Assembly (NCBI GenBank): GCA_002839705.1
Contig: PGYO01000005.1
Span: 62,001 to 126,000, forward strand
DNA from: Methanobacteriales archaeon HGW-Methanobacteriales-1
GTDB lineage: Archaea > Methanobacteriota > Methanobacteria > Methanobacteriales > Methanobacteriaceae
Length of the DNA: 64,000 nucleotides
Direction: 5' to 3'
The notes under the pieces were generated by a model. That model searched no databases. It was not told the origin of the DNA and worked only from the letters and a program-made list of their open reading frames with translations. Positions within the stretch are counted from its first letter, which is position 1. The number at the start of each line of letters is the position of its first letter. Of the stretch, positions 26,245 through 33,484 are shown in pieces. The translations under genes and the position numbers were made by a program.

Positions 26245-26421
26245 CTAGAGAGACTTTTTCTGACAATCAAAACAAGTCCTTCTATCCCTATTAGTCTTGT
26301 AAACCTTTCCACAGGAAGGACATTGAACGGTTTGAGCAGTTTTCTTCTCAATGGGGAATGGCCTATCCTGGCACTGACATTTAATTCCCACCATTTTCTT
26401 AGATGAACGTCTTCTTTTCAT
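26245..26421 (-). CDS. Small zinc-ribbon protein (DsrE operon)
   Basis: 58-residue basic protein with an arginine-rich N-terminus (MKRRRSSKK) and a CQC...CPSC...CFDC cysteine pattern suited to one or two zinc sites. It closely resembles the C-terminal half of the small protein at 31504-31692 in the arsenic cluster (both end in KVYKT/KVFKT...C.DCQ.KS). It is last in the DsrE-type operon, 58 bases after the upstream gene. Start chosen at 26421 because GGTGA lies 5 bases upstream; an earlier in-frame GTG is part of that SD. Nucleic-acid binding or a metal-shuttling role is possible; function unknown. Confidence 0.75.
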   Translation of the reverse strand: MKRRRSSKKMVGIKCQCQDRPFPIEKKTAQTVQCPSCGKVYKTNRDRRTCFDCQKKSL

Positions 26422-26479
26422 TTTTATCACCAGAAATACATTTCAAGGCTATTTCTTTAAATATGAACTGGCAGAGTTA

Positions 26480-26803
26480 CTAGAAACTAAACACTTGATC
26501 CATTTCTTCCATTAAATCCACTACTAAATCATCATAATCGTGGAAGAGTTTCGCTCCAGGAATTAAATTCTCTTTTCCCTGGCCCCGGGCCTTTAAATCA
26601 TTCTCAGATACTGAAACTGAGTGATTTTCTGCCAGGAAATGGATTAAATCGGTATGGATATGTCCATGAACTCCTCCATAAACTCCATTCCCAATTAAAT
26701 AAATGATTATTTCCCCATGGGCTCGGTAAATGTTTAATAATGTGATAAAATTATTAAAACCTTCTTCCTGAGGAGTTTTAGTTATTATAAATCCAATTTT
26801 CAT
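26480..26803 (-). CDS. DsrE-family protein (TusB/DsrH-like position in the operon)
   Basis: 107 residues with the DsrE/TusD fold pattern: a beta strand MKIGFIITKTP, then the FNNFITLLNIYRAHG helix and the EIIIYLIGNGVYGGVHGH strand-loop, typical of small sulfur-relay subunits. No cysteine is visible in the usual active-site position, so it may be a structural partner of the cysteine-bearing DsrE protein at 27880. SD GGAG lies 7 bases before the ATG. It sits between the TBP-like/4Fe-4S gene and the zinc-ribbon gene. Confidence 0.75.
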   Translation of the reverse strand: MKIGFIITKTPQEEGFNNFITLLNIYRAHGEIIIYLIGNGVYGGVHGHIHTDLIHFLAENHSVSVSENDLKARGQGKENLIPGAKLFHDYDDLVVDLMEEMDQVFSF

Positions 26804-26841
26804 TTTTTTCTCCAGTTATATCTGTTTAGAAGAATTTTAAA

Positions 26842-27468
26842 TCAATACCCTTCCCAACCCAAGGTATTCATCATTTCTGGGCCCAGCAACTTTTCCAAAC
26901 ACTGCGTCTGGGCCTGATGCCAGGGTTCTTGCAGGGGAAAACACTCATTCAGAGGCTTGTCTCCCGAAAGTACTTTAAAAGAGAATGCCATGCATGTTTT
27001 TTCACCACATTCTGCACAATCGGTCTGAGGAAGACAGTTATAAATATCCATAGGTCCTATTTGTGAAATATTTGAAATATCTAATTTTTCTATAGCTTTA
27101 GAATCATTTGAATAGGATTCTAAATTATCGTAGGCCTGGTTTATGGCCTTCATCACGTCGGTTATTATTTCTACAGCATCTTCTTTATCCAAAGTCTTGT
27201 TCATGGTGACTTTACCCGACGGATAAAGTGTAACTAGGCGGCCATATATGGAAAGTGTCAATATTTTTTTCTTTTCTACGTAATTAACTTTTCCTGGTGG
27301 GTACATGCTGACTAAACTACTAATAATCTCTTCTAATGATGAATCTAACTGCATTAAAACTCTGACTTTACCTTCTGTGGCTATACAAGGTCTTATATTT
27401 TTAATACTCACTTCTCTAACCAGAGAACCATCTTCCAGCACTTCATATTTCAATTCTTTCATTTCCAC
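26842..27468 (-). CDS. 4Fe-4S domain protein with TBP-like N-terminal region
   Basis: 208-residue protein. The C-terminal part (from about 142) has the Fes-type cluster motif DIYNCLPQTDCAECGEKTC followed by MAFSFKVLSG, as in RnfB and the CO dehydrogenase/acetyl-CoA synthase corrinoid subunits. Residues 40-125 contain two YPxGKV strands (SMYPPGKV, TLYPSGKV), the second followed by TLDKEDAVEIITDVMKAI. This resembles a half of the TATA-binding-protein fold; the resemblance is my own reading and is unproven. The start is set at GTG 27468 with AGGTGG 7 bases upstream; the ATG two codons later is the alternative. It lies inside the DsrE operon, suggesting an electron- or sulfur-transfer role. Confidence 0.7.
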   Translation of the reverse strand: MEMKELKYEVLEDGSLVREVSIKNIRPCIATEGKVRVLMQLDSSLEEIISSLVSMYPPGKVNYVEKKKILTLSIYGRLVTLYPSGKVTMNKTLDKEDAVEIITDVMKAINQAYDNLESYSNDSKAIEKLDISNISQIGPMDIYNCLPQTDCAECGEKTCMAFSFKVLSGDKPLNECFPLQEPWHQAQTQCLEKLLGPEMMNTLGWEGY

Positions 27469-27515
27469 TTTTAGACCACCTGGAAATCTCAAATATTATT
27501 TAACGAATTTATGAT

Positions 27516-27878
27516 TTAAATTCTCAAAAACGCAGTATTTTTTGATTTTACAGCCATAATTTCGTACAATTCCTGGTCATTTATAATTTCTGCAGCTTCC
27601 ACCAGATCTTTTTCTTTAAATCCTCGCTCATGTAATGATTTTTTATGAACAAAAAGGCTTCCTTCTGGAAAAATAAGGTAAGTCAGCTCTTCCACGCTGG
27701 GGAAATTCAATCCACTCTCACTCTGCTGTCCTCCCAGGGCAGCATAGACGCCGTCACCAATTAGAAGAACATCTGAATCTAACTCTTTGTTTAAGCAGGC
27801 AATTGAAACATAAAATCCACTAAAAGCATCTTCATAACCGTAAGGGGCCCTATCAATTATGATTAAAGATGATTCCAC
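27516..27878 (-). CDS. DsrE/DsrF-family protein (TusC-like)
   Basis: 120 residues. IIIDRAPYGYEDAFSGFYVSI at the N-terminus and VLLIGDGVYAALGGQQ fit the DsrF/TusC subfamily, which in bacteria forms a TusBCD complex passing persulfide sulfur to tRNA modification or sulfur oxidation enzymes. No active cysteine is seen, as expected for TusC. GTG start with GGGGTG 5 bases before; the stop of the upstream DsrE gene is one base away, so translation is coupled. Confidence 0.8.
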   Translation of the reverse strand: MESSLIIIDRAPYGYEDAFSGFYVSIACLNKELDSDVLLIGDGVYAALGGQQSESGLNFPSVEELTYLIFPEGSLFVHKKSLHERGFKEKDLVEAAEIINDQELYEIMAVKSKNTAFLRI

Positions 27879-27879
27879 T

Positions 27880-28254
27880 TTAACACCCCAAACTGATTAC
27901 TTGATGACTTTCTTTTATCCATCCAGCCAGATCATAAACATTGGTGATTGCCACACCTTTGATATATGGCTTTTTGGCACAACTATGGCCACGTGCCGTG
28001 GCACATCGTACACATGCCCTCACATCAGCCCCTCTGTTTATAAGATCTCTAAATTTCTCAGCTACATTGGGAAATGAATGAGGATTCTGTTCTTTTTTAG
28101 GAATGTGGGTAGCATCCATATATAAAAATAAATTTACCCCGTATTTTTTATTAAGTGCACTCAGTGCTATTTCATAGGCCATATCTGCATACTGGGAGCG
28201 ATAAGGGCCCTCAGTAAGAACTATGGTAAGAACTTTAGGGGAGTCCTCTATCAT
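27880..28254 (-). CDS. DsrE-family protein (TusD-like, cysteine-bearing)
   Basis: 124 residues; first gene of a five-gene - strand operon. The N-terminal TIVLTEGPYRSQYADMAYEIALSAL and the VNLFLYMDAT strand are typical DsrE. Residues 98-120 contain C-V-R-C and a further Cys (RACVRCATARGHSCAKK), which could carry a persulfide as in TusD/DsrE. Bacterial TusD hands sulfur to TusE/MnmA; here the operon instead holds an iron-sulfur protein and a zinc ribbon. No SD precedes the ATG, while a TATA-like ATTTATCTT lies about 25 bases before it, so the mRNA may be leaderless. Confidence 0.82.
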   Translation of the reverse strand: MIEDSPKVLTIVLTEGPYRSQYADMAYEIALSALNKKYGVNLFLYMDATHIPKKEQNPHSFPNVAEKFRDLINRGADVRACVRCATARGHSCAKKPYIKGVAITNVYDLAGWIKESHQVISLGC

Positions 28255-28384: not shown

Positions 28385-29467
28385 TTAAAAACCACTTTTC
28401 ACAAAATACTTCCTTTGGAACCATAAAGCTACATTAACCAGACCTATAAGTATGGGAACTTCAATTAAGGGCCCTATTACTGTGGCAAATGCCACTCCAG
28501 AACCAATTCCAAAAACAGCTATAGCAACTGCAATGGCCAATTCAAAATTATTACTGGCAGCAGTGAATGATATGGCAGTTGTTTTAGAGTAGTCTGCACC
28601 TATTCTACGCCCTAAATAGAATGTTACAAAAAACATCACCACGAAATAAATTAAAAGGGGAATGGCAATGATTATCACATCAAATGGTATCTGAACTATA
28701 TAATTTCCTTTTAGACTGAACATCACCACAATAGTAAATAACAGAGCTATGAGGGTTATAGGACTAATTTTAGGTATGAATTGCTCATGATACCAGATCT
28801 TACCTTTTCTTTTAACCAAAATAAATCTGGTTAGCATACCTGCCAGGAAAGGAATGCCCAGATAAATAAAAACACTTTGAGCAATTTCCCAAATGCTTAC
28901 ATCTATGCTGGTCCCATTTATTCCAAATAATGGCAACAAAACCATGATAAAGAACCAGGCATACACACTGTAGAACAAAACCTGAAATACACTGTTAAAA
29001 GCGACTAAACTGGCTGCATACTCATTATTTCCCCGGGCCAACTCATTCCACACTAAAACCATGGCTATGCAAGGCGCAATACCAATTAATATTAAACCTA
29101 CTACGTACTCGGGATAGTTGGATAAGAATATCACGGCCAGAGCAAACATAAAAATGGGTGCCACTATCCAGTTTTGGAACATGGCCAGTCCCAGCACTTT
29201 CCAGTCGCGAAAAACATCAGGTAGTTCTTCATAGCGCACTTTGGCCAGGGGAGGATACATCATGAGTATTAATCCAATGGCAATGGGGATGCTGGTGGTT
29301 CCCACGGAAAACTGATTTAAGAAAGAGTCAAATCCAGTTATAAAGTAACCGATGGAAACTCCCAGGATCATGGCCAGGAATATCCATAGTGTAAGATAAC
29401 GATCCAGAAAACCCAGCCCAGTGGAGTCACATCTTTTTGAATTATCTATTATTTCTTTAGATTTCAT
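28385..29467 (-). CDS. acr3: Arsenite efflux permease, ACR3 family
   Basis: Exports arsenite across the cytoplasmic membrane. 360 residues with ten hydrophobic segments in the BART/ACR3 fold. The near-invariant cysteine lies in [17 protein letters not shown] (TM4), and the conserved [20 protein letters not shown] of TM9 is present. The N-terminal [10 protein letters not shown]...[14 protein letters not shown] is typical. SD GGGG lies 7 bases upstream. The gene is last of the arsenic cluster in transcription order, but an 11-bp inverted repeat (29491-29532) overlapping the probable promoter suggests its own regulation. Confidence 0.95.
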
Positions 29468-29534: not shown

Positions 29535-30188
29535 TCATTTTTTAGACTCTTCCAAGCCTCTTTCAAAGGCGTCACGGTGCATATTAGCAGCCATTTCTTT
29601 TTTACACTCATCGTCACTTAATAATCGCATTTTAGGTGCCCGGCAGGGGTAGTGTTGAATCCTCAATCCGGCCCGGCTGGCCAGTCCCTCAGTATTCCTT
29701 CCAATAACGTCTTTGGCCACAAAATCGGTGGCCCCACAGGGAGATCCCCTTATGACTTCCACATCCACGACTTTATCGCCCTGGCAATTAATTTTGACTA
29801 TGGGTTGGCCAAATTTAGCTACGAATTCATCAAATACCGGATTTCCATTTTCCTCCAGATCGCACATGTTTTCTGGAGCAGTAATATTCCCAAATCTGGT
29901 TAGTTGTTGTTTGAAACCTTTTCCTCTCCAGGCCCCTACAATTATCCAGTCTACCTTATCATGGAGCTGTTCTACCAGTTCCAGGGTGAGATCCGGGTGG
30001 ATTACATAGGTTAAAATAACATCGGCTTCTGTTAATTTTTCCAGAGCATCCTCTGGAACGTCTATTTCATCAATAAATGCACCAACTGGTGGTTCAAGCT
30101 TGATAAATTCTGTTTCAAACTCTTCTTTGATGTTTTCATAGGCCCGTTCTCCATAAGGCCCGTCAGTTACTATGGCTATTTTAATCAT
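29535..30188 (-). CDS. DUF166 family protein
   Basis: 217 residues of the archaeal DUF166 family, which is sometimes labelled thymidylate synthase-like without proof. The N-terminus [19 protein letters not shown] and the [19 protein letters not shown] and [19 protein letters not shown] segments are the recognisable parts. Five cysteines are spread through the C-terminal half and could bind a metal or metalloid. SD GGAGG lies 6 bases before the ATG. Placement between arsC and acr3 suggests a role in metalloid handling, but that is inference only; the true reaction is unknown. Confidence 0.75.
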
Positions 30189-30235: not shown

Positions 30236-30655
30236 TTAAATCTCTCTACTAAACTCTTTTTTTATCCAGCCATGGATTCCATCTCTTAAATTTCTGAAAG
30301 ATTCTAATCTGATTGTATCATCACCTTTAAATTCACGAGGGTCGGGAAATCCCTGATGGATATGGGTTTTACCTCCAATAAAAATTGGACAGGCCCCCTC
30401 CTCACACAGAGACACTACATAATCAAATTCCTGGCCCTGAAATTTTTCCAGGCTTTTTGATTTATTTTGAGAGATATCAATGCCTATTTCACTTAGAACT
30501 TCTATGGTAATGGGATTTATTTCCAGGGGTTCTGATCCGGCAGAGTAAACTTCATAATAATTCTCATAGGTGTTTTTGAGTAAAGCTTCCGCCAACTGGG
30601 ACCGCCCTGAATTATTTTTACATATAAAAATGACTTTTTTCTTATTTGATGCCAT
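30236..30655 (-). CDS. arsC: Arsenate reductase (low-molecular-weight phosphatase type)
   Basis: Reduces arsenate to arsenite, the form exported by Acr3 and methylated by ArsM. 139 residues with the phosphatase-like P-loop C12-K-N-N-S-G-R18 (CX5R), the second and third redox cysteines C84 and C89 (VSLCEEGACP), and the DPREF-type general acid loop FPDPREFKG. This matches the thioredoxin-coupled ArsC class, in which three cysteines relay a disulfide. SD AGGTG lies 5 bases upstream. It follows the DGC gene by 46 bases. Confidence 0.92.
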   Translation of the reverse strand: MASNKKKVIFICKNNSGRSQLAEALLKNTYENYYEVYSAGSEPLEINPITIEVLSEIGIDISQNKSKSLEKFQGQEFDYVVSLCEEGACPIFIGGKTHIHQGFPDPREFKGDDTIRLESFRNLRDGIHGWIKKEFSREI

Positions 30656-30701: not shown

Positions 30702-31076
30702 TTATTCAACACGATCTTTAATTATCTTTTTAATTTCCACCACACATTTTTCACCAGATTCACCTAATCTGGCCACACCCCCTGGCTTCAAGTCATTTTT
30801 CTGTAAGGGCGTCATGACATTCATACTGTCTGCAACTTTAACTCCTTTGCTGGCCAATATCATATCCACACAAGAGTGTTCACAGCCGTTTACGGCCATT
30901 ATGGGATATTTTTTTATAATCTCCTTAAAACCTTCTTTATCCGCAGATGTAGCAGTAATACAGATGGATATGGCATCTGGTGATTCTTCTATAATATCTG
31001 AACATGAAGCTCGGGCCACGAGGCCGTAGGGACTCATTCCATTACAGGGACACAGGGCAATTTTTTCTTTTTCCAT
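30702..31076 (-). CDS. DGC-type putative zinc-binding protein
   Basis: 124 residues with eight cysteines. ALCPCNGMSPYGLVARASCSD at the N-terminus, IMAVNGCEHSCVDMIL in the middle (NGC where the family name motif is DGC), and a C-terminal cysteine (GEKCVVEIKK) match the DGC-domain family of putative zinc-binding proteins. It lies between arsR and arsC. Metalloid binding or sensing is plausible from context only. SD GGAGAG is 8 bases upstream; a TATA-like TTATAAATAAT and the palindrome TATTCGAATA (31091-31100) lie just before, so an internal promoter is possible. Confidence 0.75.
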   Translation of the reverse strand: MEKEKIALCPCNGMSPYGLVARASCSDIIEESPDAISICITATSADKEGFKEIIKKYPIMAVNGCEHSCVDMILASKGVKVADSMNVMTPLQKNDLKPGGVARLGESGEKCVVEIKKIIKDRVE

Positions 31077-31128: not shown

Positions 31129-31485
31129 TTAAATTAAATCACTTAAATTTTCAATTAATTCCAGTAATTGGTCACTGGTGAGTTGGTAATGAATCCATAG
31201 TCCTTCTTTACGGCCCTGAATAAAACCTGCTTTTTTTAAAACATTTAAATGATGTGAAATGGTTGATTGAGGTTTTTCCAGAACGGCAATTATTTCACAA
31301 ACACACAGTTCACCATCTTGAAGCAAATACAATATTTTAAGCCGGGTGGGATCAGAAATTGCCTTGAATATCTCTGATTTATCTTGTAATTGATTATCCT
31401 CTGGAATTTTAGCTATGGTTTCTTTTAATCTTTTAATCTGGCCATTACAAGGGTTTCCTTCGCCAGTAATTTCACATGTTTTCAA
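31129..31485 (-). CDS. arsR: ArsR-family metalloid-responsive repressor
   Basis: 118-residue winged-helix repressor. The core FKAISDPTRLKILYLLQDGELCVCEI includes the ArsR-type CVC metalloid site at the start of the recognition region, followed by PQSTISHHLNVLKKAGFI and the wing RKEGLWIHYQL. Two further cysteines near the N-terminus (about 4 and 13) could complete a three-coordinate As(III) site. It probably binds the paired palindromes before arsM and releases them on arsenite. The start is taken as TTG 31485, because GGTGAT ends three bases before it in the same spacing as hdrA; the in-frame GTG at 31494 belongs to the SD. Confidence 0.9.
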   Translation of the reverse strand: MKTCEITGEGNPCNGQIKRLKETIAKIPEDNQLQDKSEIFKAISDPTRLKILYLLQDGELCVCEIIAVLEKPQSTISHHLNVLKKAGFIQGRKEGLWIHYQLTSDQLLELIENLSDLI

Positions 31486-31503
31486 ATAAATCACCTTAAG
31501 CTC

Positions 31504-31711: not shown

Positions 31712-32683
31712 TTAACAGCATTTATTTCTGTTTTTTGCCCTTAATTTAGCACTCATTTTGTCAAATTTAATTTTAACATGTTCATATCCTTTGCTGTGGA
31801 ATGGACAATCTTCTATACAGTAAGTACATCCCTGACTACAACCTATACACAGTTTTTGCACCAGTTCCGCTTCATTATTTCCACAACAGGTTTCTTTTTC
31901 TAGCAGTGCTTTTTCAGGGCAGGCCTTAACACAGTTACTGCATCTATTACAGTAATCACTTATCCAGGAATGATCATCTTCGTTTTTTACAGGTAAATTT
32001 GCGATACTGACGAATATGGCAGAAATTTTCAGTCGAGGGCCAAGTTCTGGGGTCATGAGAAGACCACTTTTCCCTATCCATCCTAATCCTGCTTTTTGAG
32101 CCAGAGGGGAGAAATTAACCATACCTTCGTAAGGATGAGCTACCTGGGTGGTGTAGCCATTTTTTCGAAGATAATCTGAAATTTTATAGCTTATTTCCCC
32201 TAATTTAGCATAGGCAGCATTATTTAACTCCTGAGCTTCCTCCCCGGGGGCAGTAGCAATGATGTCTTCACTCATGGGCATGGTCAATACAATGGTGTGG
32301 GGATAAGGGATGAATTTATCTTTAATTAACAAATCGGAAGTAATTTGGGCGTATCCTATGCTGCTAATTCCCAGGGATTTAGCATAGCTCTCAAATTCTT
32401 TGATAAACTCTTCAGATGCCAAAAATTCTGCATTTTCTGGATTATTAACTTGTGATTGATCGGGATATTCTACTTCTCCACATCCACATCCACATCCGGA
32501 ATCATCTGTTTCTACCGGTGATTCATCACATCCACAATTTTCGGGAGATTCTTCCTTATTTTCTGAGTATTTTTCACCACACAAGCATTCTTCATTTTCT
32601 TTAAGTGCATCCAATTTATTTTCTTCTGATTCTGCAGAATATTCATTATTCTCGGACTCGCATCCACATTTATTATTATCCAT
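31712..32683 (-). CDS. QueG-like 4Fe-4S protein with a Cys-x-Cys-rich N-terminal extension
   Basis: 323 residues. From about 90 onward it resembles epoxyqueuosine reductase/reductive-dehalogenase-like proteins: a corrinoid-type N-terminal domain ([50 protein letters not shown]) followed by two 4Fe-4S motifs ([12 protein letters not shown] and [16 protein letters not shown]). The first 70 residues are acidic and hold four CxC sites (6/8, 34/36, 50/52, and CGCGCG at 64-69); the protein ends in CC. The extension could trap arsenite or another soft metal. Encoded between arsM and arsR. SD GAGGT lies 7 bases upstream. Whether it reduces epoxyqueuosine is doubtful in this context. Confidence 0.75.
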
Positions 32684-32728: not shown

Positions 32729-33484
32729 TTATTTCACGGCTTTGAGTTGTATACTGGTGATTTTTCCTATAAGACGTTCGTCCATATTAGGTTCGGTGAA
32801 TAAACGCTGTCCTATTATTTCTACTTCTTTAAAACCGGCTTTTTTAATGGTACTTAAATAATCTTGCTTTTCCATGGCCCCACCAATACATTCAGACCAG
32901 GCCTGGAAACTTCTTTTTATTTCTTCAGGAAGGAAACCTTCAGTAACCAAATCAGAGACTAAAATTCTTCCTCCAGGTTTTAAAACCCGGTAAACTTCGT
33001 GATAAGCATTATTTTTATCTGGAGTTAGATTTATGACGCAGTTACTGATTATAACATCAATGGTATTCTCTTCAATTGGTAAATTTTCGATTTCACCTAA
33101 TTTAAATTCCACATTGGTGTATCCACCTTTTTGGGCATTTTTAATGGCAGTTTCAATCATATCCGGAGTCATGTCCACTCCAATGACTTTTCCTTCGTCT
33201 CCCACTTTATTGGCTGCCAGGAAAACATCTATACCTCCACCGGAACCTAAATCCAGCACGGTCTCCCCTTCCTGAATTTCGGCCAGTGCAGTGGGGTTTC
33301 CACATCCTAAACCAAATACGGCCTCTTCAGGAATACTTTTAAGTTCTTCGGTACTGTATCCTACTGCCTGAGCCTGTTCAGTAACGGAATCTGCTCCTGA
33401 ACAGCATGAACAAGAGGAATTTTCTTTTTTTGCTATTTTGGAATACCTGTTTTTTACGAATTCCTTGATTTCTTTTTCCTGCAT
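32729..33484 (-). CDS. arsM: Arsenite S-adenosylmethionine methyltransferase
   Basis: Methylates As(III) with SAM, yielding methylated and volatile arsines. 251 residues with the Rossmann SAM site VLDLGSGGGIDVFLAANKVG and GVDMTPDMI. The three cysteines that bind arsenic in ArsM enzymes appear as C61 (GLGCGNP), SNCVINLTPDK (about 150) and SECIGGAM (about 200). A cysteine cluster near the N-terminus (C25, C27, C28) is extra. It is the first gene of the - strand arsenic cluster and lies behind two operator-like palindromes. SAM supply would come from the mat gene product. Confidence 0.95.
   Translation of the reverse strand: MQEKEIKEFVKNRYSKIAKKENSSCSCCSGADSVTEQAQAVGYSTEELKSIPEEAVFGLGCGNPTALAEIQEGETVLDLGSGGGIDVFLAANKVGDEGKVIGVDMTPDMIETAIKNAQKGGYTNVEFKLGEIENLPIEENTIDVIISNCVINLTPDKNNAYHEVYRVLKPGGRILVSDLVTEGFLPEEIKRSFQAWSECIGGAMEKQDYLSTIKKAGFKEVEIIGQRLFTEPNMDERLIGKITSIQLKAVK

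Follow-up and report, generated by a model that had tools for sequence, protein, structure and literature searches.

A conserved TusBCD/DsrEFH-like gene cassette with a candidate 4Fe-4S sulfur acceptor beside arsenic genes in a Methanobacteriales archaeon

TusBCD and DsrEFH are alpha2beta2gamma2 complexes that carry persulfide. In Allochromatium vinosum, sulfur is carried by Cys78 of DsrE alone, and Cys20 of DsrH is dispensable for transfer in vitro and essential in vivo (PMC3397948). We analyzed a 64,000-nucleotide stretch of DNA from Methanobacteriales archaeon HGW-Methanobacteriales-1 (contig PGYO01000005.1, positions 62,001 to 126,000; hereafter, the window). It contains five close-packed open reading frames (ORFs), all on the minus strand, which in order of transcription encode TusD/DsrE, TusC/DsrF, an iron-sulfur protein (the FeS protein), TusB/DsrH, and a zinc ribbon (Table 1).

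Table 1. The cassette and the neighboring arsenic genes in the window
Feature	Position	Strand	Profile match
TusD/DsrE-like subunit, 124 aa	27880..28254	-	PF02635 E 9.4e-23; TIGR03012 E 1.3e-7, below cut-off
TusC/DsrF-like subunit, 120 aa, GTG start	27516..27878	-	PF02635 E 3.2e-11; TIGR03010 E 1e-9, below cut-off
FeS protein, 208 aa from GTG 27468 (216 aa from ORF opening 27492)	26842..27468	-	PF04060 E 1.9e-11
TusB/DsrH-like subunit, 107 aa	26480..26803	-	PF04077 E 3.8e-7, above cut-off; TIGR03011 E 1.7e-9, below cut-off
Small zinc ribbon, ORF opening 26430	26245..26421	-	weak zinc-ribbon matches
ACR3 arsenite efflux transporter, 130 bp upstream of tusD	28385..29467	-	TIGR00832 451 bits, cut-off 282.8
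DUF166 (DfsP-like) protein	29535..30188	-	PF02593 E 2.6e-69
ArsC-like low-molecular-weight phosphatase	30236..30655	-	TIGR02691 E 2.6e-27, below equivalog cut-off; PF01451
DGC-domain putative zinc-binding protein	30702..31076	-	PF08859 E 9.3e-15
ArsR/SmtB metalloregulator	31129..31494	-	NF033788 101.9 bits, cut-off 55
ArsM-type arsenite methyltransferase	32729..33484	-	NF008823 338 bits, cut-off 263

The intergenic gaps within the cassette are 1, 23, 38, and 49 bases, the second becoming 47 with the GTG start of the FeS gene. A first-pass annotation of the sequence had placed the tusC start one base after the tusD stop and the cassette 130 bases from the arsenic cluster; both distances are the same in our ORF coordinates, the latter as the gap between tusD and ACR3. 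Upstream and in the same direction lie genes for ACR3, DUF166, ArsC-like, DGC, and ArsR proteins, a second zinc ribbon, a QueG-like Fe-S protein, and ArsM, and the cassette and these genes form one co-directional run whose largest gap is 130 bases. A TATA-like stretch (gcttataaatt), seen by inspection only about 60-65 bases ahead of the tusD ATG, would allow tusD a promoter of its own. A bacterial sigma-70 promoter scan, which is not apt for an archaeal host, gave no more matches than in shuffled sequence. The FeS gene probably starts at GTG 27468 rather than TTG 27492, because AGGTGG lies upstream and homologues begin MEMKE-; translation of the cassette zinc ribbon probably starts at 26421. 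The QueG/reductive-dehalogenase-like Fe-S protein (31712-32683), encoded between ArsM and the second zinc ribbon, has a Cys-rich N-terminus with repeated CGC/GCGCG, and similar proteins occur in related ars clusters.

The cassette had been described as containing three DsrE proteins. A DsrE-fold trio in one operon is indeed present, but the supposed third DsrE type is TusB/DsrH, by a PF04077 match above the Pfam cut-off. The three small proteins represent three different DsrEFH/TusBCD types: DsrE (PF02635), DsrF-like (PF02635/TIGR03010), and DsrH (PF04077/TIGR03011). None of them reaches its NCBIfam Tus equivalog cut-off, though all match the models. Aligned with A. vinosum DsrE (2hy5_A), the window TusD has Cys81 at the position of Cys78, and Cys81 and Cys84 are invariant in 34/34 linked homologues. 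The window TusC matches 2hy5_B (E 7.2e-5), and TusB matches 2hy5_C weakly (E 0.028). BurrH matches of TusC in the PDB search were discarded as repeat artefacts, and a PDB search with the Methanosarcina TusB returned one spurious match only. The window TusB contains no cysteine and so lacks a counterpart of Cys20 of DsrH/TusB; TusB of Halobacteriota has a cysteine at one aligned column in 18/18 sequences. A cysteine-free TusB is nevertheless compatible with a sulfurtransferase, because in vitro transfer proceeds without DsrH Cys20, and DsrE Cys78 is the only bearer of the sulfur.

We modeled the FeS protein with AlphaFold2 from 58 sequences (pLDDT 90.5, pTM 0.80) and obtained a beta-alpha-beta domain followed by a helical Fe-S domain. 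The best Foldseek match of the N-terminal domain is half of archaeal TBP (approximately 84 residues, probability 1.0, E 0.03), and the C-terminal domain matches the 4Fe-4S N-terminal domain of CFeSP (probability 1.0, E 0.08); E-values in this search are weak (0.03-0.1) despite the probability of 1.0. The fold search agrees with the earlier description of a TBP-like/4Fe-4S protein: according to the predicted model, the FeS protein is an N-terminal TBP-half-like domain joined to a C-terminal CFeSP-type 4Fe-4S domain. Five cysteines (Cys36, 159, 162, 167, and 184; 216-aa numbering) are invariant in the 58-sequence alignment, including all four of the CFeSP-type cluster motif, C-x2-C-x4-C-x16-C.

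A gene-neighborhood search had been proposed as a check on the operon, and it found the four-gene linkage kept across two archaeal phyla in three gene orders, with the FeS protein recurring in bacterial ars loci. In Methanobacteriota, a full-length FeS protein occurs in 14/152 genomes and DsrH in the same 14 (a search gave 13, and hmmscan added that of the window). In the Halobacteriota sample, the FeS protein is present in 16/19 DsrH-bearing genomes, and the DsrH loci of those 16 genomes (Halobacteriota/Methanosarcinia) all lie within 1.2 kb of an FeS gene (17/17). Hypergeometric probabilities for FeS-DsrH co-occurrence are 4.6e-20 (Methanobacteriota) and 1.2e-12 (Halobacteriota), values that overstate independence because the loci are phylogenetically related. 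With F for the FeS gene, three orders occur: Methanosarcinia have FDCB, the main cassette of Methanobacteriota has DCFB, and a second cassette, placed behind ArsR in two genomes (G140 and G139), has BDCF. That the neighborhood is kept despite rearranged order argues for selection. Distances among FeS proteins track those among TusD, TusC, and TusB (r 0.82-0.95), as long-term co-inheritance would give. The linkage of the FeS protein to TusDCB is real. At a locus in another archaeon (L225, 5571-7301), TusB-TusD-TusC and a DsrE-like protein are encoded without an FeS protein, near a thioredoxin-like protein.

The cassette core is D-C-FeS-B, and the zinc ribbon falls outside it. The first-pass annotation had noted a zinc-ribbon family common to the cassette and the arsenic cluster, and the two ribbons do share 12/24 identical residues (E 3e-7). 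Its suggestion that the ribbon is a functional partner was not supported. The six main cassettes of the same family have the ribbon next to them, but the eight Methanothermobacter-like genomes carry its best homologue approximately 7-8 kb away, beside an M50 peptidase where the stretch analyzed extends that far. We therefore rejected the ribbon as a core member, given this distance and a genome (G143) that has a ribbon without a full-length FeS gene. Weaker copies were found at other places, and the cassette ribbon is one of a small family with several copies, which is also represented in the ars cluster.

We then considered where sulfur could come from and go to. The first reading of the cassette as one without a TusE partner was upheld, since a search of the window genome with the DsrC/TusE profile PF04358 gave no match anywhere. 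Apart from the cassette, that genome encodes an IscS/NifS-like cysteine desulfurase, a DsrE, and TusA together (contig C1, approximately 188-190 kb; locus L004). In Bacillota-type loci, bacterial groups being named here after the record titles of the loci that served as search centers, a TIGR01977 cysteine desulfurase adjoins the FeS gene or is fused to the FeS protein in 21/23 cases. In the fusions, which form one clade, the FeS protein is the C-terminal domain of a 575-586 aa chain. Single-chain fusions were seen at loci L201, L202, L204, and L206, where they lie beside ACR3, and also at L199, L200, and L205. A visible sulfur donor is present in 1/36 Desulfobacterota FeS loci. Among Archaeoglobi and ANME, copies that stand alone frequently lack both a sulfur donor and ars genes. 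Two ANME-1-like homologues (L038 and L040) directly follow, by eye, a thioredoxin-like protein and a TauE/SafE-type permease. In Halobacteriota, an N-terminal extension precedes the FeS part in 26 rows; the extensions tested are ArsR-type winged helices (wHTH), matching HTH_5 (E 1.6e-6 and 6.5e-5) and HTH_metalloreg. Such proteins, often as tandem copies, were seen at Methanosarcina/Methanothrix-like loci L136-L140 and L133-L135.

Genes for ACR3, ArsP, ArsM, or ArsC-like proteins lie within 5 kb of the FeS-family gene at 73/119 loci in five phylum-level groups. Control loci encoding a related CFeSP domain had ars genes in 0/13 cases (Fisher 1.3e-5), and by chance ACR3 would be expected within 5 kb of an FeS gene in <1% of loci. 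By group, the counts are 15/16 for Methanobacteriota, 20/41 for Halobacteriota, 15/23 for Bacillota-type loci, 1/3 for Spirochaetota, and 22/36 for Desulfobacterota, a set that includes a more remote subgroup (26/36) split off by a simple PCxA motif test. Only 6/16 Methanobacteriota loci have ACR3 or ArsP, the others counting through the ArsC-like protein (near the cassette in 13/16 loci) and DUF166 (14/16). In Methanothermobacter-like genomes, the arsenic link is the ArsC-like protein only, without ACR3, and the window orthologue of that protein falls below the equivalog cut-off. ArsR genes are frequent neighbors of FeS loci. Judged from gene neighborhoods, an association of the FeS protein with arsenic genes is well supported. 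The DUF166 family has selenoproteins among its members elsewhere (PMC13188914). We rejected a selenium system as a candidate on the basis of two genes: the Bacillota desulfurase scores below the cut-off for the selenocysteine lyase SclA, and DUF166 in the window is encoded by an ordinary open frame.

We propose, at a probability of roughly 0.45, that the cassette is a sulfurtransferase of the TusBCD/DsrEFH kind, with the FeS protein taking the acceptor role of TusE/DsrC, and that it serves the adjoining arsenic genes. The acceptor role is suggested by the combination of a sulfur donor, a 4Fe-4S protein in which one invariant cysteine is free, and no TusE. Briefly, a cysteine desulfurase (the IscS/NifS-like enzyme encoded near TusA) or sulfide would put sulfane sulfur on Cys81 of TusD, and the TusDCB assembly would hand it to the FeS protein, probably at Cys36. 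The adjacent low-potential [4Fe-4S] cluster would reduce the persulfide or hold it reduced, setting sulfide or thiol sulfur free at the place where arsenic is handled. This sulfur could serve (i) thiolation of trivalent arsenic, or (ii) rebuilding of clusters destroyed by arsenite. In Bacillota-type genomes, the desulfurase would supply the FeS protein directly, sometimes as a fusion. Context gives good support for a role of the cassette that joins sulfur and arsenic. The sequences themselves show the protein families, the invariant cysteines, the genome without DsrC/TusE, the conserved linkage, and the association with ars genes, whereas we infer that a complex forms and passes sulfur to the FeS protein, what Cys36 does, and which product results. 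Acceptance of sulfur may not be universal in the FeS family, given the rarity of donors in Desulfobacterota and the stand-alone Archaeoglobi and ANME copies.

Other roles for the FeS protein have to be weighed against that of acceptor. It could be a sensor in which arsenite, persulfide, or oxidants act on the cluster and Cys36, and which controls ars transcription, directly when fused to a wHTH and otherwise through ArsR or a partner, with TusDCB or the desulfurase setting the persulfide or cluster state that is sensed. The ArsR-type extensions in Halobacteriota and the ArsR genes near FeS loci point this way, and a sensor explains the wHTH fusion of Methanosarcinia no less well than an acceptor does. 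However, the window protein and the bacterial members examined have no ArsR-type extension, many loci already contain a separate ArsR, and a dedicated three-subunit sulfurtransferase would be much machinery for sensing. We regard a sensor as conceivable, if somewhat unlikely. A scaffold or carrier for cluster repair, through which sulfur from TusDCB or a desulfurase would rebuild [4Fe-4S] clusters damaged by As(III), is in our view unlikely. Pairing with desulfurases (fusions included), a 4-Cys cluster domain with a fifth invariant cysteine, and the ars context are all consistent with repair, whereas the C-terminal domain resembles the cluster domain of CFeSP, which is of the electron-transfer type rather than a labile scaffold, and a non-systematic look at the cassettes revealed no ATPase or other assembly factor.

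That same resemblance, together with ArsC-like and ArsM neighbors, would suit a low-potential electron donor for reduction of As(V) or pentavalent methylarsenicals, with the Tus genes having another role. We consider this very unlikely, as it leaves the strict co-occurrence with DsrH and the fusion to cysteine desulfurase unexplained. An ordinary tRNA Tus relay and sulfur oxidation were rejected as candidates on the genome-wide absence of TusE/DsrC. More broadly, tRNA 2-thiolation or some other housekeeping sulfur relay that lies near ars genes by chance is the least probable of these readings: the TusD, TusC, and TusB families are those of the tRNA relay, and TusA and an IscS-like enzyme are present, but there is no TusE, the cassette occurs in few Methanobacteriota genomes, and the FeS partner is repeatedly linked to ars genes in several phyla.

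The earlier suggestion of an uncharacterized sulfur or metalloid handling system is strengthened by the conserved four-gene linkage and by the recurrence of the FeS protein in bacterial ars loci. Generalized, it would be an anaerobic arsenic-defense module across archaea and bacteria, in which a TusBCD-like complex or a desulfurase charges the FeS protein, which in turn thiolates trivalent arsenic or senses it; we offer this extension tentatively and hold it to be doubtful. Our literature search found no title or abstract describing such a system, and a search for ACR3 with a cysteine desulfurase in an ars operon gave no match; both are weak evidence, as subscription journals lay mostly outside the search. 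The cassette is real and conserved, and apparently undescribed in the searchable literature. It suggests a role for DsrEFH-type proteins in organisms without sulfur oxidation and without TusE, and gives a testable acceptor. The FeS protein itself is a recurrent and apparently uncharacterized Fe-S protein of anaerobic arsenic operons, and its sulfur-donor and ArsR-type partners imply a sulfur step in arsenic defense. Anoxic sulfidic settings are rich in thiolated arsenic, and an enzymatic route to such forms, if real, would matter for arsenic cycling.

Compared with TusBCD of E. coli and DsrEFH of A. vinosum, the cassette likewise encodes the D/E, C/F, and B/H subunits together and keeps the active cysteine of TusD/DsrE. 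It differs in having the FeS gene between tusC and tusB, a TusB without cysteine, no TusE/DsrC in the genome, scores below the Tus equivalog cut-offs, and an arsenic context. The N-terminal domain of the CFeSP large subunit (AcsC/CdhE, PF04060) is likewise a 4-Cys [4Fe-4S] domain with the same fold by Foldseek (approximately 31-32% identity over about 55 residues); in contrast, the FeS protein has no corrinoid domain and carries a TBP-half-like N-terminal domain with the fifth invariant cysteine. In Bacillota-type ars loci, a member of the TIGR01977 cysteine desulfurase family (EF2568) adjoins the FeS protein or is fused to it; no such enzyme was seen next to the archaeal FeS loci examined, in which TusDCB often takes that place. 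SAO and selenoprotein metalloid loci (DfsP/DUF166, SaoE) have been implicated in metal/metalloid resistance (PMC13188914). No Sec machinery, SaoL, or SaoT was identified here, and the features in common with the loci analyzed are DUF166 and ArsP-type permeases.
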